NCBI RefSeq assembly: GCF_011734195.1
Contig: NZ_JAANTH010000003.1
Location: forward strand, 62,001 to 126,000
Source of the DNA: Halobacterium sp. R2-5
GTDB lineage: Archaea; Halobacteriota; Halobacteria; Halobacteriales; Halobacteriaceae
Reading direction: 5' to 3'
Length of the DNA stretch: 64,000 nucleotides
Under the pieces are notes generated by a model that was not told the origin of the DNA, made no database searches, and saw only the letters and a program-made list of their open reading frames with translations. Below are positions 34,205 through 56,171 of this stretch, in pieces; the stretch's first letter is position 1, and each line of letters opens with the position of its first letter. The translations under genes were made by a program, and so were the position numbers.

Positions 34205-37200
34205 CTACGCAGTTCGTCGCAAGTCTAAGCGCCGATCAATATCCTCTCTCACGAGCTGCTCAACGTCGTCGTCAAACTCGTCGGGGGATCCTTCAATCGT
34301 GACTGACTCGAGCAGTTTCTCGATGATGTGCGTCTTACGTTTAATCATTGTCTCATAATTCCACTTCTCATTGTACTCGTCCACAGTCGGACCAATCGAA
34401 GATGTTTCGTCTACTTTCTTGAATGACATTAACTTCGAGACGGAGTTCTTGACTTTTCCCTCGTACTCGGTTGGCTCTAGGTCACTTTCTGGAATACCCC
34501 GATCCAATTCAGTAGTAATCGTCGAGATGGCTGCGCCTCCACGAGAGTTGATGAGTAGTCCCAGAACCCCCGCTAGTTCCTCGTCGGACAGCCCAGCCTC
34601 ATCCGCAAGCTCTTCGGTAATGTTCACTATATCATCCATTCTAAATTCGTGCTCTAGCAGATACTCCTCGGCGTGTTCCAAGTCATCTCGGCAGACCAGA
34701 TAGTAGAAACACGCTTTCTTGGCGAAGAGTTTGTTCTTCACCGTCGAATTATCGCTCCGAATGAGCAGGAGCATATTCCCGATGTCCTTCACGAAGAGGT
34801 CTGTGATGTCATCTTCATCTGCTTCGGAAAGTTCTGGGTCATTCGGATCGAGATTATCTATTTTCTGCATGATGGTTTTCGCGCTGTCAACACCATCGAA
34901 GAAGTGTTCTAACCAGGCACTCTTCGCGTCAACATCGGTGTTAATGACGTACGTTTGAGGGAAGATATGTTCGACTGTGAGGTCGGCTTCAGGATTGACC
35001 CAGAAGTGCCCCGATGTATAGGTGCCCCGAGTATCGGTTTCTAGAAGCTCGTCCTCAAGGAGCTTCAAGTACAGCGTTTCCACCTTCTTAGCCGTCCATC
35101 CTTCCTTGCGTACGAGTTGATTAATTACGGAATCGCCTTCGAGTCCGTTTGGCAAGTGCCGCTTCAGCATTTTCCGAACTTCCTCCGGAGCGTACTTGTC
35201 GAGATTTCCTGAGTTGTATTTCTGGCAGGCCGTCGGGAATAGGTCCGAGATGATGGTGGATGCAATGTCTTGGCCAAAGAATGAGTAGCGATAGATAATC
35301 CGTTCAACGGTGCGTAGGATCTCGACCATTGACTCTCCTTGATTCGTCTCGTCGGAGAAATTCTTGTAAACAGATAGAACAAAGGGTTCCCAAACGTTCC
35401 CGACTCTATTGAGGTGCTTAAACACCACTTCGCACTCATCTTTCAGGCTTTGATCTCTGTCATCGTCAATGTGGAGACCGTTGATTTCATCAGTATCATC
35501 GGGTAGTTGAGCCTCCTTGATATCGTGATATCGCTCAGAGTAGTCGTTCAGCGTCTGTAGGCTTGAGTCTGGGTTTCCTAACAGTATAGATTCAATCTCC
35601 GGATTCCCAACTTTTCGTAGACTAAAGAGTGACTTCACGTCTTCCTCACTCGGGTTCTCAATCCCCTGTTCAGCAATCAAGTAGTTTTTCAAGAACTGAA
35701 TGACGGTATCGTCATCGTCGCTAAATCGCTTGACAATCTCGTTCCAATCGCCTGGATTGGATGCATCTGAGGCAATAACACGTGCTCGGATGATGTCCGA
35801 GACATCCAGATCCTTGCCACGATCATTAAGCGATTGGAAAATCTCAATTTTATACTCGTCGTCTGAGAGAGAAAATTCTGCGTAGACTACCCGCATTGCG
35901 TGCAGTAACATCAGGAAGATGTTGATCAGTAGTGTTGGACGATGATTGGGGTCCGAGCACAATTGCTCCAGAATTGGTTCGTCCTTCTGTAAGTCGTCAA
36001 CCTCGTCGAATGAGACACTTATACTCAGTACTTCGAGCGTATAGGAACCGTCGTCCTCGTCAGGCTCGTCCTCCGATTCGTCATCCACAGCATCGTCGAC
36101 TTCCGGAATGCTGAACTCAACAATTCCGTCATCGTCCGTCGACTTTTCTAACTCATTAATCGAAACATCTGTGTTATTGGCCGGGTCTCCATTGTGAAAT
36201 ATCTGGAGTCGAATCTCCTCACTGTCGGAGTAGCAATCCATGACTTCGTACTGATCAGTCTTAGAGACCAGGCTCGAGGCGTCCGAAAAAGAGAACACTC
36301 GGCTTGTGTCGTGCTTCCGTGCGATGAGCTTGCTGGCGTCCGGGAAGCTTGAGAGATCAATTGTTTCTCTCCCCACCTCATCTGTTTGCGTACGGTGGAC
36401 GATGTCATCGCCGTCAGTGACGACGAGGTCAACATTCATCGCGGGGTATCCTTCAGTCGTACATTTTATCGTGACCTCGTCGCCATCTACCTGCTCAATC
36501 GACGCGTCTAGGGTATTGTCGATGCACCCGTTGACGACTCCTAGCACTTTGCCAATCTCTTCTCGGTACGTGTGGTTCGCATGCAGAAGCCGCTCGTGGG
36601 ACTTACTATAGTAAATAGTCCCGGGCTCAGAAGAGGAGAGGTGATCGTTGATGTCCTTCGGGTCAATGCCAAGATGTTTGTCTAACACCGTCTCGAGACC
36701 AATTCGTCGTCCATCGGATTCAATATCAATCCCTTCGGCGTGGGATACAGTACGTGAGGCGTCTTCCTGAAATAGCAGCTCGAGATAAGGCTGGTCGATG
36801 TCACTCGGACTCAACACTGGTTGTCTGCCATCGTAGAGCATATCCTTGAGGCATTCGGGACCAATAATGAACTCGACTAAGTCCCAGACATCGTCTCGGG
36901 AAGTCGGATCTGTGTTTTCCTCTAACGCAGTAAGATACCGGCGAATGTTCAACAAGACCAGAAGCAGTGTGGTTAAGCGCTGTTGGCCATCAATAATCTC
37001 GAGTGTATTCCGTTCATCAGCGACGTACATTGACCCCATGTAGAATTCTGGGATGTCACTTCCGCCGACGTTGCTCAGAGCGTCTCGAATACTGTGCCAG
37101 AACTGCCGATTCTGTTTTTTGTCCCACGAGTAGTTCCGCTGATAATCGGGGATTTCGAATTTGGAATAGCTCCCATTAAGAACAGCTCCCAGGAGCAGCC

Positions 37201-37408
37201 CCTCGGTATAGAGATCGCGGCGAGTGAGTGATGTGAAGTAATCGGAGAAGTCGTCAGTCTCTACACTACTGTCCCGAATCTCTTCGTCGAGCAGTTCCAG
37301 AATTCCGGGTGCATCGATGTCTTTATTGTCGAATTCGCGGTCGTACTGTCGCTCCCCGTATCTCAGGACTTTCTGGACTGCTAACGACACATCTGATCTA
37401 GAACTCAT
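34205..37408 (-). CDS. GmrSD-type restriction protein (DUF262 + DUF1524)
   Basis: 1067 aa. The N-terminal DUF262 domain is clear from FEIPDYQRNYSW (about residue 84) and IIDGQQRLTTLLLVLLN (about 139), the nucleotide-hydrolysing half. The C-terminal DUF1524 HNH-like nuclease has TVEHIFPQTY followed by DIGNMLLLIRSDNSTVKNKL. Between them is a several-hundred-residue acidic insertion (about 260-470) with DESEDEPDEDDGSYTLEV, not usual in compact GmrSD proteins and perhaps a sensor. Type IV enzymes of this family cut DNA with modified bases using NTP. Monocistronic. It lies 1.1 kb from the DNA 7-deazaguanine-like module, so its target may relate to that chemistry. Confidence 0.8.
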   Translation of the reverse strand: MSSRSDVSLAVQKVLRYGERQYDREFDNKDIDAPGILELLDEEIRDSSVETDDFSDYFTSLTRRDLYTEGLLLGAVLNGSYSKFEIPDYQRNYSWDKKQNRQFWHSIRDALSNVGGSDIPEFYMGSMYVADERNTLEIIDGQQRLTTLLLVLLNIRRYLTALEENTDPTSRDDVWDLVEFIIGPECLKDMLYDGRQPVLSPSDIDQPYLELLFQEDASRTVSHAEGIDIESDGRRIGLETVLDKHLGIDPKDINDHLSSSEPGTIYYSKSHERLLHANHTYREEIGKVLGVVNGCIDNTLDASIEQVDGDEVTIKCTTEGYPAMNVDLVVTDGDDIVHRTQTDEVGRETIDLSSFPDASKLIARKHDTSRVFSFSDASSLVSKTDQYEVMDCYSDSEEIRLQIFHNGDPANNTDVSINELEKSTDDDGIVEFSIPEVDDAVDDESEDEPDEDDGSYTLEVLSISVSFDEVDDLQKDEPILEQLCSDPNHRPTLLINIFLMLLHAMRVVYAEFSLSDDEYKIEIFQSLNDRGKDLDVSDIIRARVIASDASNPGDWNEIVKRFSDDDDTVIQFLKNYLIAEQGIENPSEEDVKSLFSLRKVGNPEIESILLGNPDSSLQTLNDYSERYHDIKEAQLPDDTDEINGLHIDDDRDQSLKDECEVVFKHLNRVGNVWEPFVLSVYKNFSDETNQGESMVEILRTVERIIYRYSFFGQDIASTIISDLFPTACQKYNSGNLDKYAPEEVRKMLKRHLPNGLEGDSVINQLVRKEGWTAKKVETLYLKLLEDELLETDTRGTYTSGHFWVNPEADLTVEHIFPQTYVINTDVDAKSAWLEHFFDGVDSAKTIMQKIDNLDPNDPELSEADEDDITDLFVKDIGNMLLLIRSDNSTVKNKLFAKKACFYYLVCRDDLEHAEEYLLEHEFRMDDIVNITEELADEAGLSDEELAGVLGLLINSRGGAAISTITTELDRGIPESDLEPTEYEGKVKNSVSKLMSFKKVDETSSIGPTVDEYNEKWNYETMIKRKTHIIEKLLESVTIEGSPDEFDDDVEQLVREDIDRRLDLRRTA

Positions 37409-38506: not shown

Positions 38507-40513
38507 ATGGCATCGTTCCGCGTGAAGACTGTTGGTGACGATGGTTACGGGCGCCTCGGTGAACTCGAGGTCACGAACGGCCCCGTCGAAACACCGGCGT
38601 TGTTCCCCGTCGTCAATATGATCGGCGGTACTACTGAGAAGTCCGGTGGCGTTTGGCGGCGGATGCGTGACCACCTCATTAAGAAGGACCATCTTCAGGG
38701 GATTATGTTCCAGGCGATGAGCTTCACCGACTACGGTGTCTCCCCGGAAAATCTCAACGACTTCTGGCGCCCACAAACATTCCAGGAACGGTTCGACGAC
38801 CTGAATGCGCCGATCTTCATCGACTCCGGCGGATTCAAACTGATGAACTCTAACACGTTTGGTGAAGCACCAGAAAAAGGTGGTGTACCAAACGAATGGG
38901 GGCTGTATACTGACCCTAAGAGTATTCTTGGACTACAGCTCGACTTCGGAGCAGACATCGTTGCGACTCTCGATTACCCTATTCCACCGAATCTGAAGGA
39001 TGAAGAGAAGACTGAGCGGATGAAGCGCAGTATCGAGAGTGCGGTCGAGTGCCTCCAGATCATGGACGACCCCGGGCTCTTGGAGGAAAACTTCGATATC
39101 AACTCGCGCGCCGCCGACCGGCTCAGGGAACGGAAAGCGGCTGGAGAGGAACCAAGCGTCTACATCGCCCTCCACGGTCACGATTACGAGACGATCAACT
39201 GGTACGTTGCTCGCTTCCTTCAGCGGGTCGAAGACCTCTCCGTGGAGAGTTCCTTCGAGGGATTCGCTATCGGCTCGCTCGTCCCTCTCCGGGACAGCAT
39301 GGACATTCTGGTCGACATCGTACAGGGCGCCAAAGATGCGATTCCCGAGTCTCGAGCCGACGAACTCGGCTTGCACGTGTTCGGTGTGGGTGGCAAACAA
39401 GTTGGCCTCCTCTCCCTCCTTGGTGTCGACACCTTCGACTGCTCGACACACATGCAGACGGCGCGGTACAAGAAGTATCTCCACCCAGAAACCTGGGCGC
39501 ACCACAAACTTGAGGATCTCCGCAACCATCTGAATGACGATGGCAGTTTCCCGTGCGACCTTCCGAACTGCCGACTCTGTAACAGCGACGACGTCGATTA
39601 CGAACTCCTCCTCGAAGAGCTCAACACCGACCTGACGTACGAAGAGCGCCAGGAACGCAAAGACAACGACGAATGGATCAAGAGTGACTACTACGCGGCG
39701 CTGGCTCGCCACAACTTCGAAGTCTACAACCAAGAGCTCACACGCGTTCGCGACGCCATCCGCGACGGGCGACTGCTCGAATACGTCATCTCGTTCGCCC
39801 GAGAGCACGAGGACATCAAACGAGGGCTGAAAGAGGCACAGCTGCGCAACAAAGAGCTTCGAGCAGAGATCGAGTCCCGTGGCGCCTACGACTTGCTTCC
39901 TGGGTCTACGCTGACCAGCGACCAGTCGAAGCTCTCCCGGTGGGACGCCGGTGTTGACGCGAGTAGCGACTCTCAACAGATCTCACTGAAACATACACCC
40001 AACGACTTCAACATTCTCGCACAGTCATACTCACCACCCGCTGACAAAAACATCCTCCTGCTGGTTCCATGCAGCCAAAAGAAGCCGTACTCGAAGTCAC
40101 GCACTCACTCCGTACTCTACGACAAACTAGCAGGTCATACGGAAGACATCTACAAGGTCACAATCTCAGGGATGTACGGCCCGGTTCCCGAGGAGTACGA
40201 ACGTGAGGATCCCATTCTGGAGTACGATTACGTGCTCGCTAAAGAGGACGAGGAACAGATTGAGTTGATCACGGACCGAGTCCGACAGTATCTCGAAGTG
40301 TACGGTAGTCAGTTTGATGAAATAATCGGGTACGTCACGAGCAAGACTTATCGGACTGTTATCGAGAACGCCTTCGAAGCATATGGCCGAGGAAACGTCT
40401 ATCCGGAGGACCCGCAGGCGATGCAGCTTACTGAGTTCTTCAGGAATACAAACATCCAAGAACTCATCGACCACCTAGAACGACAGAAGATCGACGCCGA
40501 GGCCGAACAGTAA
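38507..40513 (+). CDS. TGT/DpdA-like transglycosylase fused to an ArcS-type (DUF5591-like) domain
   Basis: 668 aa. Residues 1-410 form a tRNA-guanine-transglycosylase-type barrel: RLGELEVTNGPVETPALFPV at the start, catalytic Asp in FIDSGGFKLM (D106), nucleophile region GVDTFDCSTHMQTA (D311), and zinc ligands C350, C355, C358 and H402. A helical linker spans 410-500. Residues 515-655 carry PCSQKKPYSKSRTH (521-534), an exact match to the archaeosine-synthase signature PCx3KPYx2Sx2H. Ordinary ArcS proteins have a degenerate TGT half, and ordinary arcTGT lacks this motif. Here both appear active. DSGGFK in place of DSGGFQ resembles DNA-acting DpdA more than tRNA TGT. Likely inserts preQ0 into a polymer and converts it in one protein; DNA as substrate is inferred from context. 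Confidence 0.8.
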   Translation: MASFRVKTVGDDGYGRLGELEVTNGPVETPALFPVVNMIGGTTEKSGGVWRRMRDHLIKKDHLQGIMFQAMSFTDYGVSPENLNDFWRPQTFQERFDDLNAPIFIDSGGFKLMNSNTFGEAPEKGGVPNEWGLYTDPKSILGLQLDFGADIVATLDYPIPPNLKDEEKTERMKRSIESAVECLQIMDDPGLLEENFDINSRAADRLRERKAAGEEPSVYIALHGHDYETINWYVARFLQRVEDLSVESSFEGFAIGSLVPLRDSMDILVDIVQGAKDAIPESRADELGLHVFGVGGKQVGLLSLLGVDTFDCSTHMQTARYKKYLHPETWAHHKLEDLRNHLNDDGSFPCDLPNCRLCNSDDVDYELLLEELNTDLTYEERQERKDNDEWIKSDYYAALARHNFEVYNQELTRVRDAIRDGRLLEYVISFAREHEDIKRGLKEAQLRNKELRAEIESRGAYDLLPGSTLTSDQSKLSRWDAGVDASSDSQQISLKHTPNDFNILAQSYSPPADKNILLLVPCSQKKPYSKSRTHSVLYDKLAGHTEDIYKVTISGMYGPVPEEYEREDPILEYDYVLAKEDEEQIELITDRVRQYLEVYGSQFDEIIGYVTSKTYRTVIENAFEAYGRGNVYPEDPQAMQLTEFFRNTNIQELIDHLERQKIDAEAEQ

Positions 40514-40529
40514 ATCTTATTTCGGACAG

Positions 40530-42086
40530 TTAGTCGTCTGCGGCTGCGAGTGTCTTTTGCTTGATGAGGGACTCCACCTCGATGATGTCGATGTGGTGTG
40601 TAGAGTTACCGTGGTACGTGAGGGTGTTCTCGTCGAAGTCGAATTCGAGATTGGCACCATAGTATCCCTGTCGCTCGTGTTCTTGTAACTCGGTCGGATC
40701 ACCGCGTGTCCAGCAAATCGCAACCTCTGTATTCTCGAGTGGAACGTCTTCCTCGAATAATTCAGTGAGTTCTGGATGAACGACCGCGTTTCGAAGCTTA
40801 CCGTCCTGCCGGACAATTGCGTGAATGTCTGCAGTCGGATCGAAGTCCTCGACTCTGAGGGGTGACGACTGAGTTTGTTGCGTCGCCCGTTCCATGGCGA
40901 GAAGGACTTCCGTTTGGTTGTCCGGACTGAACCCGTTGGCCCGAACCTGATCTCGGCGTTCTGAAATCGATGAACGTTGGTTGACCGAGCGGCGCCGGTG
41001 TTGCCCCTCTTTGCGTGTCTGGAGGTAGTCTTTGAACCAGGGATCCTGCGTGACCTTGGAGATGTAGTACTCGACTTCGTCCCGGAGTGCTCGGTAAACT
41101 GGACTGGCTTTGTTTCGTATCGTTTCGCGGTTCGCAGAGAGTTCGATGTCCTGGCAGTTCGCCACGAAGAAGAAATGGATGAATTCGTTGTCGTGAGAGA
41201 TGGCCTCGTTCAATCGTTCGACTTTGATGTGATCTTTCGCGAACCAGATGCCGAACTGAGCCGAGTGTCGGCCGTACGTAGGCAACTCGTTTCGAGCTTC
41301 TTTCCCACCAACCATTCCCGTGATTTGTAGCGTCGTCTCACCACCTTCGTACTCGATATCGATTTCCTCCGACGGGTAGTGTTTACACATCCGAGCAGCA
41401 GGATACATGTCGTCGTCCGGTTCGTGTTGTTCGTCCGGGAACTCCAGCCGATTCGTCGTCGTTAACTGATCTCGAGTATCATCGATCTCCTCATCGAGAT
41501 CGACGGTAATCTCCATTTCGCGCTGGCTGTCACCGAAGTGGTGCGCAGTAGAACCGGCGATTGTCTTCCACTTGAGATAGTGGTGAATCTTGTTGTACGT
41601 CAGCTCCTCTGCGGCGAACCCCTGGCCCGATCGGAAGTTCGTGATTTTGATTTTCGTTCCAGGGTTACCCGGACGGACCTCGTTTTTCGTCAGGTCGTAT
41701 TCGGGGAGCTCCTTTCGGTTCAGTTTTTCCCACGGCTTGTCCATCACCGCGCGGTAACTAGTTCCCTCGTGGATGGTTGTGACCTCGATGCGGTCGCTCT
41801 TGTAGAAGATCTTGGTACCATGGCCCTTGTACCCGATTGAGTCGGTCTTCCTTGAATTCCCCAGGTCGAAGAATGACTCGAGGTCACGCTCGTTCATTCC
41901 CTGTCCGTCGTCCTCGATGATAATGTCGGAGCCGTTCGGCCGGTTTTGGATTGTTATCTCGACTTCGGTTGCGTGAGCGTCATATGCATTCGAAAGCGAT
42001 TCGCGAATGACTTCGAGCGGGTCCTCGAAGTCGCTCGCAATCTCGAGAAATTCGTTTACTTCGTTGACTTTTGGCGACTTTTTCAT
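40530..42086 (-). CDS. GHKL (Hsp90/MORC-like) ATPase
   Basis: 518 aa. The Bergerat nucleotide site is complete: ESLSNAYDAHATEVEITI (N-box), IIIEDDGQGM (G1, DxGxG) and SIGYKGHGTKIFYKS (G2). The rest is a transducer-like domain and an acidic C-terminus. The fold is used by Hsp90, MutL, MORC and type IIB topoisomerases. No membrane or kinase features are present. It is translationally coupled (1-nt stop/start overlap) to the upstream TGT-like gene and convergent with the TGT-ArcS fusion. In bacterial Dpd systems an ATPase (DpdB) assists base insertion; this protein could take that part. That role is inference. Confidence 0.75.
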   Translation of the reverse strand: MKKSPKVNEVNEFLEIASDFEDPLEVIRESLSNAYDAHATEVEITIQNRPNGSDIIIEDDGQGMNERDLESFFDLGNSRKTDSIGYKGHGTKIFYKSDRIEVTTIHEGTSYRAVMDKPWEKLNRKELPEYDLTKNEVRPGNPGTKIKITNFRSGQGFAAEELTYNKIHHYLKWKTIAGSTAHHFGDSQREMEITVDLDEEIDDTRDQLTTTNRLEFPDEQHEPDDDMYPAARMCKHYPSEEIDIEYEGGETTLQITGMVGGKEARNELPTYGRHSAQFGIWFAKDHIKVERLNEAISHDNEFIHFFFVANCQDIELSANRETIRNKASPVYRALRDEVEYYISKVTQDPWFKDYLQTRKEGQHRRRSVNQRSSISERRDQVRANGFSPDNQTEVLLAMERATQQTQSSPLRVEDFDPTADIHAIVRQDGKLRNAVVHPELTELFEEDVPLENTEVAICWTRGDPTELQEHERQGYYGANLEFDFDENTLTYHGNSTHHIDIIEVESLIKQKTLAAADD

Positions 42087-43330
42087 TAGAAGTACCCTCC
42101 GAGGGATTCGTTGACGACCTGGTGAGCGAATCGGCGCATTGTTTTGTCTCGACTGAACGTGTCTTCTAAGTATTCGATGAGGGCATCGTTCCCGTCCTGG
42201 TGAATGCTGTTCCGGATGGTCTCCAGTTCCTGCTTCTGAATAATGAGGTTGTGCATCGCAACGGGGCCGAGAATATCCTTCTGGTACTCGGCATTCCCGT
42301 TCATGCGATCGACCAGATGATCAGACTGACAGACAGGGCAGGAACACTGACTGAAATCGGCCTCCTCAATGGATACCTGATCCATCAGAGTTCGGTTGTA
42401 CTTGCCGTTTATCGCATTGTGGAGGTGGGTGCTAGAGTCGAAGGTGTCTGCACCGAGCGCGGCCAGGATTGGGATGGAACGACTTGCAATCCCGAGGACG
42501 TGGAGCGGCCAGTCCGAGATCCCCCATTCGTCCATGACCTCCCGGCAATCAGTGACAGCCTGAATAAGGTCGCCTCGGTTGTCTTTCTTTGGGACGAGAC
42601 TACCGAGTGCGACGCCGTCGAACCCTTCGCGGAGCACGCCCATCGGGACTGAGTCGGTGATTACGTCGAGGAATTCGTTCATCATCGAATAGTTGTATCC
42701 GTGCAGTGTCAGATACTGAGCTCCCTCGAAGTCCCGAGTGAGTGTGAGAAACTCGTGAATGTTTTCCGCTGTCTTCTCGGCTTTTCGGATCCGTTCGTCG
42801 TGAGAGTCGTCCGGAGCAATCGGATGATCGAGGTTGACGATGATGTCGCTTCCAATAGCTTCCTGGATTTCATAGACAGTCTCCTGATTCATCTCGACCT
42901 CGAAGTCGCTACCGTCAATCTCGGCGTTGTTGAGGAATTTGAACCCGCCGGAATCTGCGAAGATCAGGCCGTTATACGGCTCGAATAACTCCCGTTGCTT
43001 GATCGGCATCTCCAGGTACTGCTCGAAACGGTCTCTGGTGAGATTGTAGTCCGTGAGCGAAGAGACGGACATCATCGAAGCGTCGAAGTAGCGGTCCAGA
43101 GGCTCGAGGCCGACACGGTCGGCGCCGATCATGAATTCCTTCAGCGTTCGATGGATCCCTCCGCCGTAAACACTCCGTTCCGAACCTCCCGCGTAAAAAT
43201 TCATCACCGGGAACAGATTAGGGGTTTCGAGCGTTGTACCGTTTATATGCAACGAGCCTGCACGGGCGTCACCGGATGTCGAGCTGATGTCGAAGTTGAA
43301 AGACCGGGTAGATTTTGCGTGAGGCATCAC
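42086..43330 (-). CDS. TGT/DpdA-like transglycosylase
   Basis: 414 aa. The TGT barrel has its two key acids in LIFADSGGFKFL (D126) and GADTFDSSTHLHNA (D298), and a textbook zinc site CSCPVC (C329, C331, C334) with H360. TLETPNLFPVMNF is the substrate-pocket strand. It lacks the PUA and other C-terminal extensions of archaeal tRNA enzymes, and its length is that of DpdA. DSGGFK is shared with the fusion protein at 38507-40513. It overlaps the DUF6884 gene by ATGA upstream and the GHKL gene by 1 nt downstream. A second DNA-directed transglycosylase is the most likely reading. Confidence 0.75.
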   Translation of the reverse strand: MMPHAKSTRSFNFDISSTSGDARAGSLHINGTTLETPNLFPVMNFYAGGSERSVYGGGIHRTLKEFMIGADRVGLEPLDRYFDASMMSVSSLTDYNLTRDRFEQYLEMPIKQRELFEPYNGLIFADSGGFKFLNNAEIDGSDFEVEMNQETVYEIQEAIGSDIIVNLDHPIAPDDSHDERIRKAEKTAENIHEFLTLTRDFEGAQYLTLHGYNYSMMNEFLDVITDSVPMGVLREGFDGVALGSLVPKKDNRGDLIQAVTDCREVMDEWGISDWPLHVLGIASRSIPILAALGADTFDSSTHLHNAINGKYNRTLMDQVSIEEADFSQCSCPVCQSDHLVDRMNGNAEYQKDILGPVAMHNLIIQKQELETIRNSIHQDGNDALIEYLEDTFSRDKTMRRFAHQVVNESLGGYF

Positions 43331-43803
43331 TGGACAGGTGCTATGGTCCGCGTATTCGTCTCCAACGCCTCGAGATCGCCCCTGACCAACTGCTTTAGGA
43401 TGCTTCCCTTGTACCCGATACCATCCCCTTCGATGAAGTAAACCGGAACATCGAGTACCGACTCGACACCCTCTAACGCGCGGTTATAGTCCCCGCCGAC
43501 GTTCACGATTATCCTTTCGTAGTCGTCCGCGCGCTCAACAATCCTCTTCTTCACTTCCGGTGCGAGGTCCGCGGCGCGGTTCGCATCCATCCGACGGTCG
43601 TACCACGATATCTCATCGTCCGGATCAATCAGGCCGTGTTCAGCAGAGAGGATACAGAGATCGATGTCTTCGTCGAACTCCTCCTCACGTTTCGCCTTCT
43701 TGATGATTTTGAAGAAGAACCCGCTATACAAATCCAGAGCCGGCACCGGTTCGCCCGGCTCGTTCTTGGACTTAGAGCAACCCTGTACCAGTAAGGACGA
43801 CAT
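43327..43803 (-). CDS. DUF6884/YaaA-like protein
   Basis: 158 aa from the ATG at 43803 (MSSLLVQGCSKSKNEPGEPV); a longer open frame to 43992 adds a basic, Cys-rich leader that is not family-like. GCSKSK, DLYSGFFFK, LCILSAEHGLIDPDDEI and the pattern YDRRM are the DUF6884 hallmarks, related to the YaaA (DUF328) fold. Such domains are found beside or fused to TGT-like enzymes. First gene of the three-gene operon with the TGT-like and GHKL genes. Possible DNA binding by analogy with YaaA. Confidence 0.75.
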   Translation of the reverse strand: MSSLLVQGCSKSKNEPGEPVPALDLYSGFFFKIIKKAKREEEFDEDIDLCILSAEHGLIDPDDEISWYDRRMDANRAADLAPEVKKRIVERADDYERIIVNVGGDYNRALEGVESVLDVPVYFIEGDGIGYKGSILKQLVRGDLEALETNTRTIAPVQ

Positions 43804-44029
43804 ACTCTGTTGTTGCGACCACCGATGCTTGAATGTTGCCCCCTTGAATGACTTCGAACGTCGTGTGGCTGTGATATTGGATTCGTCAGGCGCCACATCC
43901 TTAGCTCCCTTCGGTTTGCTTTCGCCGCCACGAGCTGACAGAGAACGTCTCTGGTGGCACTCGCAGTCTGACTGTCTTATAAACCAACACACTCGTCGCT
44001 TCGCGCCTGCTCCCGAAAAATCAATTATT

Positions 44030-47230: not shown

Positions 47231-47236
47231 GGACGT

Positions 47237-47944
47237 ATGGGTTCTGAGGACGCCGCCGAGTCCGAGGGTGGAAACTCGAGTCCGTCGACCGTCTTCGTCG
47301 ATACGAGCGTCCTCCTGAACTACGTGCAGCAAGACGTCGAACGCGATAGAGCGTCCGCGATCATGGACGTTGACGAGGTCGGCATCGTGGTCGGTGTCAC
47401 CGTCGCGGAAGAACTCGAGGCGGTCCGCGACCGGCGCGCGGATATCTACGAGGACTTTGTCGACTTCCTCCTCGAAGAGGACGGTGAAGTTGGCGGCTAC
47501 ACGCCCGTCTCTCGACGACCGTACTTCCAGGCGAACGACGAACAACACGTTCGAAACATCCAGATGCGGTTGTCGAAGATCGACGATCGGGCGGCGGTTC
47601 AGCGGGAACTGCGTCGGGTCACTCGCGCGGCGAAACGCCGTCTCGAATACCTCACAGAGGAAGTCCTGCCCGACGTGACGTTCGACCAACAGCCCGGGCT
47701 CACGGTGATGTTCGCACTCGGGGAAATAGTCGGCAACGACAACGACCGCCGCGTCGTCGGTGACGCTGCCCTCTGGTCAGCGGAGGGCGAGGATAGTTCC
47801 GGTGTGTTCGTCACGATGGACAAAGCTGACCTCGTGGACGCGGCCGAAGAAATCAACGCCGCGCTCAGGGACGCGAAAGACGAACGGTGGGAATTGAAGG
47901 TTGTGTTCCCGTCACAGCTCTCCATCACGGGCGGCACTGACTGA
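47237..47944 (+). CDS. PIN-domain RNase, candidate toxin
   Basis: 235 aa. The PIN acidic residues are in STVFVDTSVLLNYV (Asp), GVTVAEELEAV (Glu) and RRVVGDAALWSAE (Asp), followed by VFVTMDKAD on the last strand. An insertion of about 90 residues (LEEDGEVGGYTPVSRRPYFQ onward) between the second and third motifs makes it longer than VapC toxins. Cotranscribed with the Panacea-like gene. Ends 36 bp before the convergent PLD-like gene. Confidence 0.65.
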   Translation: MGSEDAAESEGGNSSPSTVFVDTSVLLNYVQQDVERDRASAIMDVDEVGIVVGVTVAEELEAVRDRRADIYEDFVDFLLEEDGEVGGYTPVSRRPYFQANDEQHVRNIQMRLSKIDDRAAVQRELRRVTRAAKRRLEYLTEEVLPDVTFDQQPGLTVMFALGEIVGNDNDRRVVGDAALWSAEGEDSSGVFVTMDKADLVDAAEEINAALRDAKDERWELKVVFPSQLSITGGTD

Positions 47945-47979: not shown

Positions 47980-48435
47980 CTAGTCTGCCGATTCGACCTC
48001 TAGCCCCAAATTCTCCCGAACGTAGGCTCGTGCCGATTCGTGGTCGTTTTCCAGGATTTCGCAGAGCTCGCGGTTGAGCGTCAGCCCACCGTGCGTGATG
48101 TTTGCCGACCCCATGTACACGAACTCGTCGCAGACCACTGCCTTCGCGTGCAGGTCGTCAACTTCGTGAAGCGCCACGTGGTCGGGGAGGCGGTTTTTGA
48201 CGTACTCGTTGTGCTGCTCGCCGGTTCGGACGAACAGCTCGACGTCTTTCTCCGGCAATTTCTCGAGCGCCTCGAGCAGTCGGACGTCCCGTTCCGAGAA
48301 TCGGTCGTTGACAGGGAAGTTGAGAGTGACGTCACTCAGCCACGGCGACACGATGACCGTCCGGTCGCTGTGGAGGAGCGCGAACCCCACGAAGTACGAG
48401 AGGCTCTCAGAAGTCAAGGAAAACGCTCGTGTCAT
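47980..48435 (-). CDS. Phospholipase-D-fold protein (DpdK/DrmC-like)
   Basis: 151 aa from the ATG at 48435 (MTRAFSLTSESLSYFV); 48444 is an alternative. It has a single HxK motif: DDLHAKAVVCDEFVYMGSAN, with IT following, as in PLD-fold nucleases. VIVSPWLSDVTLNF begins the domain. One HKD unit implies a dimeric active site. The start lies inside the 3' end of the helicase gene (29-bp overlap), so it is translationally coupled. PLD-fold proteins close both Dpd (DpdK) and DISARM (DrmC) operons. The final gene of the long minus operon. Confidence 0.7.
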   Translation of the reverse strand: MTRAFSLTSESLSYFVGFALLHSDRTVIVSPWLSDVTLNFPVNDRFSERDVRLLEALEKLPEKDVELFVRTGEQHNEYVKNRLPDHVALHEVDDLHAKAVVCDEFVYMGSANITHGGLTLNRELCEILENDHESARAYVRENLGLEVESAD

Positions 48436-51400
48436 TGAATTCACCTGCTGGGATGAGCTGTCTGTCGAACATTTCGTCGCTCGTCTCGTCGGACGGAACG
48501 GTGTGGACGACCTCCTCCCGGAGCGCCTCCAAGTGGACGTAGCTCAGCGAGTCACTTTGCTCGTTTGTCGCGATGCACTCGCTGAGGTGGAGATTCTCGA
48601 CGCATCCGTCGATGTCCGGCGAGAAGAACACAGTCTCGGCGCGGTCGGCGTCGGAGATATCGACGTCGAGTCCGGCGACTGCGTCCGTCGGGAACTCCTC
48701 GGCGCCAGCGACCTGCTCACTGGCGATCGCGCGCTTCACCCTGTACGCCTCCTCGAGTTCCACACCCTCGTCGGCTGCGAACTGGTAGGCCTTGTCGACG
48801 CTCGAGAAGACTTCCTGCACCACGCTGTCGACGACCGACTCGTACGGAATGTCGAGCACGTCACTGACGAGCGCCTCGATCGCGTCCTCGTCTTCGGGCG
48901 AGTCCGGGAGCCGGTCCACGAACGCGTGGTCGGCCCAGAGCCGCTCGTTGATAACCTGAGGGTTGTACGCGGTCCGATTGACTGCTTCCAGTACCGTTGC
49001 CGGGTCACTCTCGAGTTCGTCGTACACGAGATCGACGATTCCCTGTCCCCCTTCCGTTCGTTCGAAGACGTAGACCTCACTCTGTTCCCGGTCGAACCCG
49101 TAGAACAGCATCGTCGTGTTGACCGCGCTGACGTCTGAGACGAGCTGCAGGAAGAAGTGCGCCGCCGTGTGGTAGGCGACGTACTCGTAGTCGAACTCCT
49201 CGAAGTCGTTGTACCGTTCGGCGATCTCTCGGACCTCCTCACTGTTCACTCGTTCGAGGAACGAATCCATGTCGAAAATGAGGCCACGCGTGTCCAGCTG
49301 GAAGCCGATAGTTTCCTCGGGCGTGTCGATATCAACCTCGAAGGGATCGCCAGCCCCGAAGCTCACCTCTGCCCCCCACGACTGGGCAGGCCGAATGTTG
49401 AGGGTCACGCCCTCGAGGGCGACTTCGGACGTGATGTCCGCCAGTGAAATTGTGCCCGTCGTATCGATCTGCGTCTCGTCTCTGATCCGGGTACTCACGT
49501 GCGCATCAGAGTGAATCTTGCCCAGCTTACTCTTTCCGTGTCGCAAACAGTTATCCAGGTCAGAGAGGATCTGGTAGCAGTCGGGACAGTACCGGACGAT
49601 ATTCAGCGCTGCCTCGCCACTCAGGTCAGTCATCGAGTCCAGTTCGATCGAGTCCGGGACGAGGATACCGTCGCGGACTTCCCCGCTCACGTTCCGGGAG
49701 AAGTCGAACTGGACCCCATCCTCAGTCACCTCAGTGTGGGGGAGAAACGCCTGCATTTCGTTCGTCTCGGACTGATATTCCGAGCGGTACGGCGCGTACG
49801 TGGACACGAGCTTGTCGATGGACTCGTCGGAGCTACTGGTCGAGTCAGGTTGGAAGACGCTAAAGAAGCGTCCAGAGTCACCGTAGTAGTTCGGCGGGAC
49901 GTACCACACTTCGCCAAGTGACCGGTCGTCGACCTGTAGAAACCGGTCGAGGTAGTACCCACCACGCAGCAGGTGCCGGACAGCGTACAAACTGAGGTAC
50001 GGACGACCGAAGCTCACGTATTCCTCCAGTTCGTCGAGTACTTCCTGCAGGTAGTACACCTGCTTCTGGGTCCGGTAGAAGTCCTTGATGCGGTCGTCGT
50101 CACTGAGCGCACTCAGTTGGGTCACTGCCTCCTGCACCTCGTTCAGCCGATCCGTGCGGACCGACGGAATCGGTTCGTCAGAGGCTCGATTGACCTGACT
50201 CTGGAGCTTGATTAGATCGCCACTCAGCCCGAAAAGGTCACCCAACAGTCCCTCGAAATGCTGGACTTTCGTCTGGGTGTCACCGTCCGGAATCCGTGAC
50301 GCCCGTTCGCGTAACCGCTCGAGCTCCGATTCCAGTTCGGCAACATCAGCCTCGTACCCAGAAGCGCCCAGTGCGTGGAGCTCGTTCTCGTACCCAGACA
50401 CTTGGCCGAACAGCGAGTTCACCAGCTTCAGTACCTGGTCTTGGACGCGGTGTACGTAGTTGTCGACGGCGTCCTCGCCCCTGACCACGTCACCGTCGTC
50501 CAGCCCGAAGAACGACTCGATGTCCTCGAACTCGCTTTGCCTCTCGTCGAGGTACGTCTCCAGTGCTGCATACGCCTCCTCGACGAGCGCTTCGGAGAGC
50601 AGTGGTTCGGGCGCGACATCGACGCCTAGCTCCTCGTCGAAGAATTCCGATGGCGATAGCAAGAGCCGGCGGTAGGCGTCGAAGCCCAAGCGGTCGTCGA
50701 GGTACTCCTCAACGAACACCTCATGTGGGTCTTCCAACCGGAAGTTGCGCTGTTCGACGTCGCTGGCTACCTCGTAGTACTCGCGGAACCGTCCGTGAAT
50801 CCACTCCACCACGTCGTTGTCCGTTTTCAACGGCGTACGGATGTCCGAGTCCAAGAACCGGTCGGCTCGGTAGAACATGTTCGCGTCCCCGGTGAGTCCT
50901 GACAGCATCACCGCGATATGAGCGTCCATGCCCTCCTCGCGTGCAGCGCGGCCGGCGCGCTGCTTGAACGACGACAGGTCCCAGGGCGTCCGGTACTGGG
51001 TGATCGTCTTAATCTCCCCCACGTCGATCCCGACTTCTAAGAACGACGTCGACAGCAGGACGTCGCTGTTTCCGACGTCAGCGGAGTCGAACCCGCGGTC
51101 GGAGTACACCGGCAGAAAGCTCAGATGTTGGTCGAGGAAGTTGTGGTTCATCTCCCGCGCAACTTCGGTCCAGTCCTCGACATCGTCGCCGCCAAGGTGG
51201 TACCGCCACAGCTCGCGGTTGTGGTCGGCGTCGACTAGCTGCGTGTACTTCTGATTGACCTGTGAGATGCTATCGATAAACGCGAGCATCTTCCCGCGTT
51301 CACCATTCGCATCCTCGAGAAGGCTGTGCCCCAGCAGGAGGTGTTGCTGGATGGACATCGAGGACGCCCCCGGCCCGTCCTGTGACGCGAGCATGAAGTA

Positions 51401-52480
51401 GTAGTGCTCGTGGTCGTCGTGGTCGTCGTCGAAGTCGGACTCCGGCGGCTCCACCGTCCGGATGTGGTTGCTGGAGACGCCGAACAGCTGCTTCCCGAAC
51501 CGCGCCGCGTCGTCGATGGTCGCACTAGATCCCAGCCAGAGAACCGGCTGTTCGGTGATGTCGTTGATGTTCTGGATGATTTTCGCGGCATGTGCACCCC
51601 GCAGCTGCGTGTTCAGGTGCACCTCGTCGAGCACGATGGTGTCGATGTTGTCGATTAGGGGGTAGTTCGGCTTGAGCGCGAACCCCTCGAGGGACTCCAG
51701 CGTCGTCAGCAGAATGTCCGGCTGGTTGTGGAACACCATGTCCTTCCGGGAGAGGACCAGCTCCTGGTCCGTGAACGAGTGTTCCGGGTGCTGCTCGCAC
51801 TGCAGCGTGTACGACCGAGAGGTGCCGTGATACTCGAAGGCGTTCGGCGACCCCTCTTTGCCACACCAGCAGTTTGCCAGCCTAAACCGGGGGCGCCCGC
51901 CACCGGCATCGAAAAACGTCGAGTTCGTCTCCACGTCGCTCATCTCGTAGGGCATCCGACCGACGTACACGCCGACCGACAGCTGGTCTCCGGTCTGAGA
52001 CTTTATTTCGTGGACGTGCTCGAGCACGCGTCCGAGCTGGTCCTGAAGGAGTGCGCGGCTCGGGTACACGATCGCTGTCGACTCCTGGCGCCCCTCGCGG
52101 AGGAGCTGGTATAGCGGCCCGAGGAATGCCTCTGTCTTCCCGAAACCCGTCGGCGCAGAGAACACCGCCGCCCTGTTCTCCCCGGTCTCACGGCGCTCAC
52201 GGTGGAGCTCCTCGACGGTCTGCCAGCTCTCGACCTGGAAGTCCAACGGGTCGAACCCGAAGAAATCGATAATCTCCTGAACGAATTCGTCGGAGCCGTC
52301 GTATGGACTCGTCTGCCGGCGCTGTTGTTTCTCGCTCCGGTACTTCACCGCCTCCGTGACGAACGGCGGGTCGTCTTGGTCCGCGTCGAAAATGCGTCTG
52401 TTGTTGAGAATTCCATCGATGAGCGGTCGAACGTCCCGATTGATGCGAGCGGCGTTGGTGTGCCGGTCAATAAATTGCAT
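48407..52480 (-). CDS. Large DEVH-box helicase (DpdJ-like)
   Basis: 1357 aa. SF2 helicase: VFSAPTGFGKTEAFLGPL (Walker A, 109-116), AIVYPSRALLQDQLG (Ia), IDTIVLDEVHLNTQLRG (Walker B, DEVH), LWLGSSATI (III). In the second lobe come DVLLSTSFLEVGIDVGEI (V) and SSFKQRAGRAAREEG (VI, arginine fingers). A cysteine cluster (CWCGKEG to CEQHPEH) lies between motifs Ia and II. The long C-terminus includes CPDCYQILSDLDNCLRHGKS and an ERTEGGQGIVDLVYDEL stretch like DUF1998. Size, motif set and place before a PLD gene suit DpdJ; a DISARM DrmA-type helicase is the main alternative. Probable DNA translocase of a restriction complex. Confidence 0.7.
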   Translation of the reverse strand: MQFIDRHTNAARINRDVRPLIDGILNNRRIFDADQDDPPFVTEAVKYRSEKQQRRQTSPYDGSDEFVQEIIDFFGFDPLDFQVESWQTVEELHRERRETGENRAAVFSAPTGFGKTEAFLGPLYQLLREGRQESTAIVYPSRALLQDQLGRVLEHVHEIKSQTGDQLSVGVYVGRMPYEMSDVETNSTFFDAGGGRPRFRLANCWCGKEGSPNAFEYHGTSRSYTLQCEQHPEHSFTDQELVLSRKDMVFHNQPDILLTTLESLEGFALKPNYPLIDNIDTIVLDEVHLNTQLRGAHAAKIIQNINDITEQPVLWLGSSATIDDAARFGKQLFGVSSNHIRTVEPPESDFDDDHDDHEHYYFMLASQDGPGASSMSIQQHLLLGHSLLEDANGERGKMLAFIDSISQVNQKYTQLVDADHNRELWRYHLGGDDVEDWTEVAREMNHNFLDQHLSFLPVYSDRGFDSADVGNSDVLLSTSFLEVGIDVGEIKTITQYRTPWDLSSFKQRAGRAAREEGMDAHIAVMLSGLTGDANMFYRADRFLDSDIRTPLKTDNDVVEWIHGRFREYYEVASDVEQRNFRLEDPHEVFVEEYLDDRLGFDAYRRLLLSPSEFFDEELGVDVAPEPLLSEALVEEAYAALETYLDERQSEFEDIESFFGLDDGDVVRGEDAVDNYVHRVQDQVLKLVNSLFGQVSGYENELHALGASGYEADVAELESELERLRERASRIPDGDTQTKVQHFEGLLGDLFGLSGDLIKLQSQVNRASDEPIPSVRTDRLNEVQEAVTQLSALSDDDRIKDFYRTQKQVYYLQEVLDELEEYVSFGRPYLSLYAVRHLLRGGYYLDRFLQVDDRSLGEVWYVPPNYYGDSGRFFSVFQPDSTSSSDESIDKLVSTYAPYRSEYQSETNEMQAFLPHTEVTEDGVQFDFSRNVSGEVRDGILVPDSIELDSMTDLSGEAALNIVRYCPDCYQILSDLDNCLRHGKSKLGKIHSDAHVSTRIRDETQIDTTGTISLADITSEVALEGVTLNIRPAQSWGAEVSFGAGDPFEVDIDTPEETIGFQLDTRGLIFDMDSFLERVNSEEVREIAERYNDFEEFDYEYVAYHTAAHFFLQLVSDVSAVNTTMLFYGFDREQSEVYVFERTEGGQGIVDLVYDELESDPATVLEAVNRTAYNPQVINERLWADHAFVDRLPDSPEDEDAIEALVSDVLDIPYESVVDSVVQEVFSSVDKAYQFAADEGVELEEAYRVKRAIASEQVAGAEEFPTDAVAGLDVDISDADRAETVFFSPDIDGCVENLHLSECIATNEQSDSLSYVHLEALREEVVHTVPSDETSDEMFDRQLIPAGEFNDTSVFLDF

Positions 52481-52587: not shown

Positions 52588-53268
52588 TTACGACAGTGTG
52601 AGCTCGATGTACTCACCGATGTCCGACTCGGCGAGCTGGCGTCGCTGCGTCTCGCTCAGGTCGGCATACGACAGCCGTTCGTCCTCGATCATCCGGTAGA
52701 TCAGATTCCGTATCTCCTCGGGGTAGACGCCGAACATCTCGTCTTTGAGATCGTCGAACGCCGTTCTCATCTCCTCGCCGTACTCGCGTGCGTTCGCCTC
52801 CAGTTCGTCGAGTGACGCGTCTCCGCTCAGGTAGACGTGTTCCTTCCACCGCCAGTCGTCGAGCAGGCCCTCCAGGGCTTCGAGACGTACCTCGCTGACG
52901 CGGTCGACCCGGTCGTTCAGCCGCCGCATCGCGGCGACCGTCGAGTTGTGCTTCAGTCGGAGCTCCTGAATGCGGTTCTCGACGGTCGTCGCCGCCGACT
53001 CGACGTCCGTTTCGAGGTCGTCGATTTCGGCCTCGACGGTCCCGTAGTCGCCGCGGTCGAGGTGCGTCATGACAGTCTCGACGCGCTCTCTGGCCTCGGC
53101 GTCGATCTGCACAGACTCCTCGAAGAACGCCTTCGCGAGGACTCGCTGGAGAATCGTCTCCTCCATCGTCTCCGCGATGTCGTCCAGCTCGTCGGAAAGG
53201 TGGCGACGGCGGTACTCTTCCTGGACTGCTTCGAGACGCGTCTGCAGCGGCTGCGAGTTACTCGACAT
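52588..53268 (-). CDS. Coiled-coil protein of the Dpd-like operon (DpdI position)
   Basis: 226 aa from the ATG at 53268 (MSSNSQPLQTRLEAVQEEYR). The open frame reaches 53358 but overlaps the upstream ATPase gene in poor sequence. It is nearly all helical with heptads (VEAEIDDLETDVESAATTVE, NRIQELRLKHNSTVAAMRRL). No catalytic motif. It overlaps the end of the ATPase gene by 11 bp and precedes the helicase. Probably a structural bridge between those two; matches DpdI only by position and size. Confidence 0.55.
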   Translation of the reverse strand: MSSNSQPLQTRLEAVQEEYRRRHLSDELDDIAETMEETILQRVLAKAFFEESVQIDAEARERVETVMTHLDRGDYGTVEAEIDDLETDVESAATTVENRIQELRLKHNSTVAAMRRLNDRVDRVSEVRLEALEGLLDDWRWKEHVYLSGDASLDELEANAREYGEEMRTAFDDLKDEMFGVYPEEIRNLIYRMIEDERLSYADLSETQRRQLAESDIGEYIELTLS

Positions 53269-56170
53269 AGTGATCACCCACGCGTTTGAACTCGGTCGCG
53301 AACCCAGACACCGTCCCGCCGCCCACGATCGTGATGTCATCATAGCGCTGGTAGACATCGGATGCGACGAGCTTCATGCTGACGAGTACGGCGTGCAGCC
53401 GGTCCTGATCGGACCCGTGGCGAAGCGAGGACGCGAGCTCCGCGGCCGCGACCGCATCGTCGATGTCCGTCTGGTCGAGCGCGACGAACTTGCTCAGCGA
53501 CTCGATCATCTCGGCGTCCGCGCTGTCGTAGGTGCGAAGCGTCGTGACGATGTCTTCGATCTCCGTGAGTGAGACGGCGTCGAGTTCATCGGTGAACACG
53601 CTCACAGTGTCGGCGCGGTACTCGCTTTCAACTTCCTCGAGCGCCGCCTGTGCGTCGTACGCTCCGTCCGCGATGTCCCGAATCTTGCTGTCCGTGTCAA
53701 ACCGGACGCGCGGCGAGATCCGCTGGATCTGTCCGCGTCCGAGCCCGGCAAGCACCTCGTACGGCGGATTCTCGGCGATCCGGTCGCGGACCGCCGCAAG
53801 ATCAAGTGTGTTCGCGTTGGCGCCGTAGAACCCCTCAACCAGGTCCTCGAACCACTGGCCGTTGTCGACGAATGCTCTGAGGTCTTCGAACTCGTCCGGC
53901 GGTAGCTCTGCCTGGAGTTCGGCGCGGAGGTCCGAGTCCATCGTGTACGATGTCCCGTCAGAGAACCGCTCACTGAGCGTCTCCGCGGACAGCCCCTCGA
54001 ACGGTGAGTCCAGCAGGGCGACCAGCGCGTAGCCGGCCAGCGCGAAGTCCTCGAACTCGTAATCCGCGGACTTCTTGAAGAACCGCGTCTCCGACCGGAG
54101 ATTCGCCTCGATGACCTTTGTGCGCCAGCGGCGAGCGTACCCCGTCAAGTGGGTCCCCATCTCGCGCAGGAGCTCCGCGTAGTCCGCGCCCGACTTGTCC
54201 TCCTCGCGGTAGACACCGAACTCGAGGAGCTTTTTCAGGTCCGAGATGCGGAACGCCTCGGGATCGACTACGATCTGGTCCTCGTCGGGCGCCCGCGCCA
54301 TCGACCGGAACACGAACGGGTCCTTCTGGCTGCTCAGGTTGTAGCGCAAGGTCGTCCCGTCGAACAGCTGGTAGTCGTTCGTCAGCCGTTCGATGGCGTC
54401 ACGAAGCCCGACGCGCAAGTACCGGCTTATCTCCGGGAAGTCGCCCGGGTTCTGCTGCCACGGCTGGACGTTCGGGCGGTGTTCTTCGATCAGCCGTTGC
54501 GCCTTGGACTTCCGCTCCACCGTCGTTCCCGACGTTCCGATATCGTTGCCGGTGCCACCACCGGTCGTGCCTCCGTTGGTTGGCGGTACATCCACGTCGT
54601 TATCCGTCGGAACGAGGACGCTGCCGCCGGACTCCTCGACTCCATCCAGGGCGGCGACCGTATCCTGGAGTCCAAATACGTCCACGAACCGGCAGTCGAC
54701 TTCGATTCCGTCCTCGGTCGGAACGCCGTACCAGCGTGCGAGGTTCGCGACCGAATCCGCCTGCTCGTAGATCTCGGTGGCGGGGTCGACACTGTTCGTC
54801 AGCGTGGACAGCCGCTCGGCGTCGGATGGCGCGTCCACGTACCCGTCGTAGTAGTCGCGGAGCACGTCGAAGACGGCCATCACGTACTCGCGGGGCGACT
54901 GTTCATCCTCGCGAAGGCCGCGGTAGACGCGCTCGAGGAACGGCTCGTTGAACGGGAACAGGTCGCGGAAGGGCTCGTCGCAGAACCCGCAGTCCGCGCA
55001 GGTCGAATCTGCGGGCGCAGGCTCCAGTTCGATCTCCAGGCCCTCTCCGCTGCGGTCGTACCGGACGCTGCCGTCGAACGACTTGAAGTATCCGAGGTAC
55101 GGGCGGATGAAGTCGACCGCGGAGTCCTCGTCGAGGAACAGCACGCTGTTCGAGTTCTGCCGGTTCGTCCGGTAGAACTCGAAGCGGTCCTCGGCGGTCT
55201 GCGTGTGCAGGACCTGCGTGGAGTCGCGTGTGCCCGCAACGACGAAGTCCCAGTTGTCGCTGCTCTTGTCCCGCTCCATGTAGTTGCGGAGCCGCTGCCC
55301 TTCCATGGCTGTAATCGCGAAGTCCTCGAAGACGATTACAGGCCGCGTGTCGGTGAACCGGTCGCCGACCCGCTCGAGGACGTCGTCGAGGGAAGCCGTC
55401 TGGTAACGGTCCCGGATTTCCCGCCACAGCTCCTCGTTGAACGCTGTTACCGCCTCCGACTCGTCGACACTGTCCGCGACGATCTGGAGGAAGTCGTTCC
55501 GGCGGTAGGCCTGCTCGGTGACGAACTTGATCTCCTTGGCGTACTCGCCTTTCTCCACGAGCAGCGACAGCTGGTCCTGGACGAACTCCTTGATCTTCTC
55601 CTCATCGTCGTCCCCGACGTCGATGTCGTACCCACGCGCGCTGAGGTTCAGGATGGCGCCCGACGTCGCGTTGTTCGCCACGACGCTCCCGTTCTGCTCG
55701 AGGTCTTCCCGGAGCTGCTTGAAGTTCGACGCGCCCGGCAGCTCTTCGCCGAACTGCCCCTCGTAGAACTCTGGGATGCGCTCGGAGAGCAGCGTCATCA
55801 GGTCGTCGTCCTTGTCGACGTGGAGGATCGGTCGCTCGTCTTCCTCCAGCCGGTGCGCGAGGTACGCGCACAGCTCTGACTTCCCCGTGCCGACTTCGCC
55901 CTCGATGACGACAGTGAAGTTCCCGACGCGTTCGTCCGAGAACTCCCGATACACCTGCTCCTCGCTGACGACTTCTTCCTCCGTCTGGGTCCCCTGCGGC
56001 GACCGGAACACTTGGATCGGCCGGTGGGTGAAGTCGAACAGCTCCTTGTCGTCAGACCGCACTGCCGCCACTTTCGAGAACAGCCGGCGGAGCGTCTCCT
56101 CGTCCACGTTCTGGAAGTGTGGACAGTAGAGGCCTGAATCGTCGGTCTGTTGTTCTTGTTCCGTGCTCAT
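53258..56170 (-). CDS. Large P-loop ATPase (DpdH-like)
   Basis: 970 aa from the ATG at 56170 (MSTEQEQQTDDSGLYCPHFQ); the longer frame to 56254 is basic and not coding. Walker A: FTVVIEGEVGTGKSELCAYL (91-98 core). Walker B: RPVIVFEDFAITAME (278-283). A zinc-like CADCGFCDEPF follows near residue 405. A Gly/Thr-rich linker (NGGTTGGGTGNDIGTSGTT) separates the ATPase from a C-terminal helical half. No nuclease motif. The ATPase plus large uncharacterised C-half and the neighbouring genes resemble DpdH. It starts 1 bp after the wHTH gene ends. A regulator or loader for the helicases is likely. Confidence 0.65.
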   Translation of the reverse strand: MSTEQEQQTDDSGLYCPHFQNVDEETLRRLFSKVAAVRSDDKELFDFTHRPIQVFRSPQGTQTEEEVVSEEQVYREFSDERVGNFTVVIEGEVGTGKSELCAYLAHRLEEDERPILHVDKDDDLMTLLSERIPEFYEGQFGEELPGASNFKQLREDLEQNGSVVANNATSGAILNLSARGYDIDVGDDDEEKIKEFVQDQLSLLVEKGEYAKEIKFVTEQAYRRNDFLQIVADSVDESEAVTAFNEELWREIRDRYQTASLDDVLERVGDRFTDTRPVIVFEDFAITAMEGQRLRNYMERDKSSDNWDFVVAGTRDSTQVLHTQTAEDRFEFYRTNRQNSNSVLFLDEDSAVDFIRPYLGYFKSFDGSVRYDRSGEGLEIELEPAPADSTCADCGFCDEPFRDLFPFNEPFLERVYRGLREDEQSPREYVMAVFDVLRDYYDGYVDAPSDAERLSTLTNSVDPATEIYEQADSVANLARWYGVPTEDGIEVDCRFVDVFGLQDTVAALDGVEESGGSVLVPTDNDVDVPPTNGGTTGGGTGNDIGTSGTTVERKSKAQRLIEEHRPNVQPWQQNPGDFPEISRYLRVGLRDAIERLTNDYQLFDGTTLRYNLSSQKDPFVFRSMARAPDEDQIVVDPEAFRISDLKKLLEFGVYREEDKSGADYAELLREMGTHLTGYARRWRTKVIEANLRSETRFFKKSADYEFEDFALAGYALVALLDSPFEGLSAETLSERFSDGTSYTMDSDLRAELQAELPPDEFEDLRAFVDNGQWFEDLVEGFYGANANTLDLAAVRDRIAENPPYEVLAGLGRGQIQRISPRVRFDTDSKIRDIADGAYDAQAALEEVESEYRADTVSVFTDELDAVSLTEIEDIVTTLRTYDSADAEMIESLSKFVALDQTDIDDAVAAAELASSLRHGSDQDRLHAVLVSMKLVASDVYQRYDDITIVGGGTVSGFATEFKRVGDHYVE

Positions 56171-56171
56171 G

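Follow-up and report, generated by a model that had tools for sequence, protein, structure and literature searches.

Several described systems come close to the one analysed here. The Dpd system (dpdA–K) is associated with dADG in bacteria, where DUF6884 is the domain given for dpdC (PMC11888242). Vibrio phage nt-1 encodes a DpdA and an ArcS homologue in one genome, and its DNA contains dPreQ0, dADG and traces of dG+ (PMC6884629), which is consistent with a DpdA/ArcS-type pair acting on DNA. In the tRNA pathway, ArcS (archaeosine synthase alpha) of T. kodakarensis performs only lysine transfer, giving preQ0-lysine from which RaSEA then makes archaeosine, and the free enzyme is inactive without RaSEA even for lysine transfer; the same work found that, in tRNA, arcTGT replaces preQ0-Lys with neither guanine nor preQ0 (PMC11298593). 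ArcS of M. jannaschii reportedly uses NH4+, Asn or Gln, as cited there. Finally, the main text of a preprint (Bell et al. 2025, PMC12458937) describes BRIGADE Type I, a haloarchaeal system with one Dpd-branch and one ARMADA/Druantia-like YprA helicase, a PLD nuclease and a predicted 7-deazaguanine cluster.

We analysed a window of 64,000 nt from Halobacterium sp. R2-5 (GCF_011734195.1, contig NZ_JAANTH010000003.1, positions 62,001–126,000, forward strand) that encodes a transglycosylase (TGT) fused to an ArcS-type DUF5591 domain in a setting resembling both Dpd and BRIGADE Type I (Table 1). We consider it likely that this fusion is a DNA guanine transglycosylase joined to a nitrile-converting domain, and that it supplies the base modification in a Dpd-like self/non-self system of haloarchaea (BRIGADE Type I). 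Vibrio phage nt-1 carries its DpdA and ArcS homologues as separate viral proteins, whereas here the two kinds of domain lie on one chain in cellular genomes.

Table 1. Coordinates, in the window, of the fused gene, its parts and the surrounding island genes
Feature	Position	Strand	Basis or remark
Fused transglycosylase–DUF5591 protein (668 aa)	38507..40513	+	translation without stop; 41 haloarchaeal and 29 other homologues
TGT half, residues 1–440	38507..39826	+	alignment; structure match to arcTGT 1j2b
D106 codon	38822–38824	+	TGT half
D311 codon	39437–39439	+	TGT half
ArcS-type DUF5591 domain, residues 505–632	40019..40402	+	PF17884 E 1e-19; 2q07 AF0587 E 1e-9
PCx3KPYx2Sx2H, exact, residues 521–534	40067–40108	+	followed by SGMYGPVP
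GHKL-type ATPase, conserved partner	40530..42086	-	PF13589; in 34/40 haloarchaeal loci
Second DpdA-like transglycosylase, 414 aa	42086..43330	-	intact DSGGF, FDSSTH and zinc ligands; own clade 100/100
DUF6884, DpdC/YaaA-like	43327..43992	-	true start suggested at 43803 (~158 aa) by homologues
DpdK-like phospholipase-D-type nuclease	47980..48444	-	NF041068 E 3e-16; PDLC02901 E 7e-15
DpdJ-like YprA-family helicase	48407..52480	-	NF041067 E 6e-49
DpdH-like ATPase	53258..56254	-	PADLOC DpdH E 9e-10
Conserved operon gene, no family found	56172..57011	-	equivalent position in Natrinema plasmid L005
Second YprA/DruE-like helicase, MZB domain	57940..62676	-	PADLOC DruE3 E 1e-40; PF09369
GmrSD-like (DUF262/DUF1524) restriction enzyme	34205..37408	-	possible, inconstant member: 3/40 loci

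The fused protein and its relatives

Pfam places a TGT at residues 13–435 of the fused protein (E = 2e-28), and residues 1–461 of its AlphaFold model (mean pLDDT 85.6) match arcTGT (1j2b), the best solved relative, with a Z score of 36.5. D106 (DSGGF) and D311 (FDCSTH) pair with the aspartates that P. horikoshii arcTGT carries in its DSGSF and LFDSA, and C350, C355, C358 and H402 align with the zinc-ligand region of that enzyme. The fusion resembles arcTGT (TgtA) in fold, catalytic Asp pair and zinc site; it differs in having His rather than Gln at position 223, in the attached DUF5591 domain and in its defence context. In the second half, the motif PCx3KPYx2Sx2H would be expected from composition at about 4e-8 occurrences per protein of this length.

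We compared 70 homologues, 41 from haloarchaea and 29 from other phyla, the latter nearly all bacterial. Invariant in all 70 were D106, S107, G108, G109, D156, H223, G256 and D311 in the TGT half and C522, K526, P527, Y528 and S531 in the DUF5591 half; H534 was kept in 64 and the four zinc-site residues in 67–70. Given this invariance and the improbability of the motif, the combination is neither chance nor relic, and the residue pattern of the family is that of two predicted working active sites. The initial annotation had read a seemingly active TGT half and an exact ArcS motif in one 668-residue chain, and that reading is borne out across the family.

The protein falls below the cut-offs of models for its characterized relatives, scoring 110.9 bits against the ArcS equivalog NF040592 (cut-off 440) and 106.6 bits against arcTGT TIGR00432 (cut-off 350). 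The ArcS match ends at profile position 404 of 575, before the PUA region (beyond ~440). DpdA models of PADLOC and NCBIfam do not reach it, and NF041059 (cut-off 200) gives no match at E 0.01; the 414-residue transglycosylase scores 29.5 bits against that same model, also under its cut-off of 200. His223 is common to the fusions, the 414-residue enzyme and the DpdA of phage 9g, but a Nostoc DpdA-like protein has Gln there, which, like the missing DpdA model match, counts against a DNA transglycosylase.

ArcS shares with the fusions a TGT-like half and DUF5591, its core domain, bearing PCx3KPYx2Sx2H. It differs in a second motif, which reads SG[LM]YGPVP in 69 of the 70 fusions, where it resembles the SGLYG of YaaA, and TSP[LI]GxVP in ArcS (14/14 haloarchaeal and 22/23 other archaeal proteins). 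Fusions and ArcS, whether from haloarchaea or from other archaea, separate in the DUF5591 tree with support of 100/100. The 14 haloarchaeal ArcS proteins have lost most of the TGT residues near the active site, and the fusions keep theirs intact. The outcome that the initial annotation had named as refuting its own reading, an ordinary ArcS whose TGT half is inactive, is thereby rejected. In the TGT-half tree each group is coherent, ArcS joins arcTGT (99/95) and the fusions lie outside both, but the deep branches are not firm: their order and the union of archaeal with bacterial fusions are unsupported (26/0), FastTree giving 0.995 for that union. Because long DpdA branches blur this tree, we make no claim on the root of the TGT half.

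The fusion is sporadic in the class of the host, being found in 38 of 391 sampled genomes, with three more copies on two plasmid records. Among 84,980 species genomes scanned, full-length relatives outside haloarchaea were recovered at 28–36% identity in Cyanobacteria, Poribacteria and Chloroflexi and in MAGs of Deinococcales, Thermodesulfovibrio, Kuenenia and Thermococcaceae. Carriers include Haloplanus ruber, and Planktothrix paucivesiculata has the form without a second DpdA-like gene. A viral origin was considered and rejected: a pattern scan of IMG/VR found no relatives, and INPHARED gave a single weak match, to the TGT half only. On Haladaptatus plasmid L006 (20736–22700) two different fusion genes, 66% and 41% identical to the one in the window, lie in one island; in genomes G316 and G289 the fusion query found nothing.

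The haloarchaeal island

Beside the fusion lies a module of three genes on the minus strand, encoding a GHKL ATPase, the 414-residue second TGT and a DUF6884 protein, which overlap by 1–4 nt (4 nt between the latter two). All four genes were found within 20 kb of one another in 34 of 40 haloarchaeal loci. The second TGT is present in the same genome or plasmid as the fusion in 39 of the 40; of the six loci without the full set inside 20 kb, five carry it at another site of that contig, plasmid or chromosome. The module also appears to be inherited together: distances co-vary (r 0.80–0.95), and for fusion and second TGT none of 2,000 permutations reached the observed value. A divergent gene for a TFIIB-like transcription factor (44030–45016) adjoins the module; TFB-like genes also border the L006, L047 and L115 loci and are perhaps island-specific regulators.

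The DUF6884 protein matches PADLOC DpdC and aligns with the DUF5591 domain of the fusion (hhalign E 2e-5). A direct hhalign comparison of the fusion with an individual YaaA sequence gave no match. By fold, DUF6884 resembles YaaA at Z 10.6 and AF0587 at Z 9.7, against 7.3 for the best unrelated match. Taken with the assignment of this domain to dpdC in bacterial islands, these results suggest that DUF5591, DUF6884/DpdC and YaaA share one fold. The haloarchaeal island may thus contain two pairs for inserting and converting a base, one of them fused and the other encoded by separate genes.

The effector operon contains DpdJ-like and DpdK-like proteins, which are homologous to their namesakes but score under the NCBIfam equivalog cut-offs, and its genes are in the same order on Natrinema plasmid L005. 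The island shares with Dpd a TGT homologue, a DpdC-like DUF6884 protein, DpdJ, DpdK and DpdH-like proteins and preQ0 genes; it differs in that the TGT–DUF5591 fusion replaces or accompanies DpdA, and in that a GHKL ATPase is present while no DpdB (DndB-like) protein was seen among the annotated island genes, a scan covering part of the window's genes. Between module and operon (46154–47944) are genes for an uncharacterized 358-residue protein and a 235-residue PIN-like protein, a pair that flanks DpdK in Natrinema L005 too. A protein with five HNH-associated repeats is encoded at 29757–30965, and similar repeats occur in a 914-residue protein just beyond the effector operon.

A QueC–FolE–QueE–QueD operon, with the genome's only full-length QueC, lies 2.6 kb beyond the end of the window. 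QueC, QueD and QueE lie within 20 kb of the fusion in 12 of 40 haloarchaeal loci, and a second full-length QueC exists elsewhere in 5 of 13 genomes checked. Since the linked QueC is often the only full-length one in haloarchaea, its linkage to the fusion partly reflects the site of the sole preQ0 operon.

The layout of the island fits BRIGADE Type I as set out in the main text of the preprint: placed by profile score, one YprA helicase is Dpd-branch and one ARMADA-like, and the nuclease and preQ0 genes of that type are represented by DpdK and, past the window, FolE, QueD, QueE and QueC. The system is thus already recognised, and what appears to be new here is the fusion, its companion pair and the bacterial solo form; the fusion family also extends, unlike BRIGADE Type I, outside haloarchaea. 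The words DpdA, ArcS, preQ0 and transglycosylase are absent from that main text, and its supplement may depict the fusion.

Bacterial loci

On a Deinococcales contig (L160), DpdJ, DpdK, an open reading frame, the fusion, QueD, QueE and QueC follow one another uninterrupted on one strand. In 12 bacterial genomes the fusion was the only strong DpdA-like match; QueC was present in all 12 and RaSEA over cut-off in none. Nor did tblastn find RaSEA in any neighbourhood of the fusion, so that a RaSEA partner inside the island is rejected. Certain further loci in bacteria, among them L163 and most of those in Poribacteria, had no clear Dpd genes within 9 kb, which counts against the proposed reading.

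Two further settings were seen. In a Chloroflexi MAG (L165, 8890–16870) the fusion gene adjoins a DISARM DrmA helicase, and in cyanobacteria (L135, 10900–12638; L138) it is followed by a GmrSD_N (DUF262) gene and a HEPN gene, a different effector set.

Function and product of the fusion

Antiviral genes and genes for the raw base lie in one island, so it is probable that the fusion labels the DNA of its host with an unusual base. Modification of DNA had been the initial proposal, and the Dpd/BRIGADE defence island with its preQ0 genes agrees with it; this context, the absent PUA match and H223 all argue for DNA as substrate. By homology, the FolE–QueD–QueE–QueC operon would supply preQ0. To judge from its residues and context, the TGT half, using D311 and D106, would exchange guanine for preQ0 in chromosomal DNA, and the tethered DUF5591 domain would then attack the preQ0 nitrile, probably through C522 and K526, adding an amine or water. 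By analogy with Dpd, the DpdJ-, DpdK- and DpdH-like proteins and the second YprA-type helicase would restrict unmarked DNA. Since arcTGT leaves preQ0-Lys in place in tRNA, conversion would lock the base in, and such a block to reversal is a plausible reason for tethering both domains. In haloarchaea the 414-residue TGT, DUF6884 and GHKL ATPase may work beside the fusion, either in a heteromer with it or as a separate branch of the dADG type; bacterial fusions appear to act without such partners.

Candidate products are dPreQ0-Lys, dG+ formed directly, and dADG. The initial annotation had proposed a one-protein route to archaeosine. Both halves are indeed on one chain, and a single protein doing both steps fits best in bacteria, where the 12 genomes had no other strong DpdA-like match; of the haloarchaeal loci, 34 of 40 also contain a second TGT and a DpdC-like gene. 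Archaeosine itself fares less well, as ArcS of T. kodakarensis needs RaSEA, and with none in the islands and none over cut-off in the bacterial genomes, archaeosine by the T. kodakarensis route is unlikely in bacteria. Lysine specificity is likewise unsupported, because the second motif differs from that of ArcS in nearly every member.

Among the possible chemistries, insertion of preQ0 followed by amidine formation in DNA, both by the fused protein and giving either dG+ (from ammonia or glutamine) or dPreQ0-lysine, is credible, if somewhat short of an even chance. The exact ArcS motif with its invariant C522, K526, P527, Y528 and S531 favours this chemistry, as do the 12 bacteria with the full fusion as sole DpdA-like gene and the substrates reported for M. 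jannaschii ArcS; it is weakened by the divergent second motif, by the dependence of T. kodakarensis ArcS on RaSEA, and by the fact that sequence alone does not fix the nucleophile. We put forward only tentatively that, in cellular DNA, a single polypeptide carries out both the replacement of guanine by preQ0 and the conversion of the inserted base to an amidine type (dPreQ0-lysine or dG+). If so, the self mark in the genomes of archaea and bacteria would be a deoxynucleoside that bears an amino acid or is of archaeosine type, and the bacteria would make it without RaSEA. A pathway of tRNA modification would have been turned into a defence enzyme that marks DNA, its insertion and locking steps united in a single chain, and 7-deazaguanine DNA modification would extend to haloarchaeal and several bacterial defence islands. 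The fusion predicts a specific, possibly new, deoxynucleoside detectable by LC-MS.

Alternatively, the DUF5591 half may be a DpdC-like hydrolase that turns dPreQ0 into dADG, the protein being a fused DpdA–DpdC. The kinship of DUF5591 with DUF6884, the YaaA- and AF0587-like fold of the latter, its identity as the dpdC domain and the YaaA-like second motif all speak for such a hydrolase, but the first motif is that of ArcS, and a separate DUF6884 gene in haloarchaeal islands would make a second hydrolase redundant; we consider this possible, though less likely than not.

TGTs act as dimers, and the tight co-occurrence and co-inheritance of the two TGTs would suit a heteromer with one true exchanger, in which DUF5591 is a DNA-binding module, as the related YaaA is annotated to be. 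This arrangement is unlikely, however, since both TGTs keep all catalytic residues, the second is absent in bacteria and the active-site residues of DUF5591 are invariant. Least probable is that the fusion is a tRNA-archaeosine paralogue with tRNA or some other RNA as its substrate. Although arcTGT is the best solved relative and reportedly does not require its PUA domain (Sabina and Soll 2006, cited in PMC11298593), the host already encodes an arcTGT, an ArcS and a RaSEA on a different contig, and the fusion is sporadic, sits in a defence island and occurs in 12 bacterial genomes where RaSEA stays under cut-off. Genome G014 gave no match for arcTGT and none over cut-off for ArcS, a possible loss of tRNA archaeosine.

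A third kind of DpdA-like TGT, of 344 residues, is encoded on Haloarcula plasmid pHsi139 (L173, 11992–13026), near QueE, QueD, an EVE-domain gene, a BREX-like ATPase and a PD-(D/E)XK nuclease.
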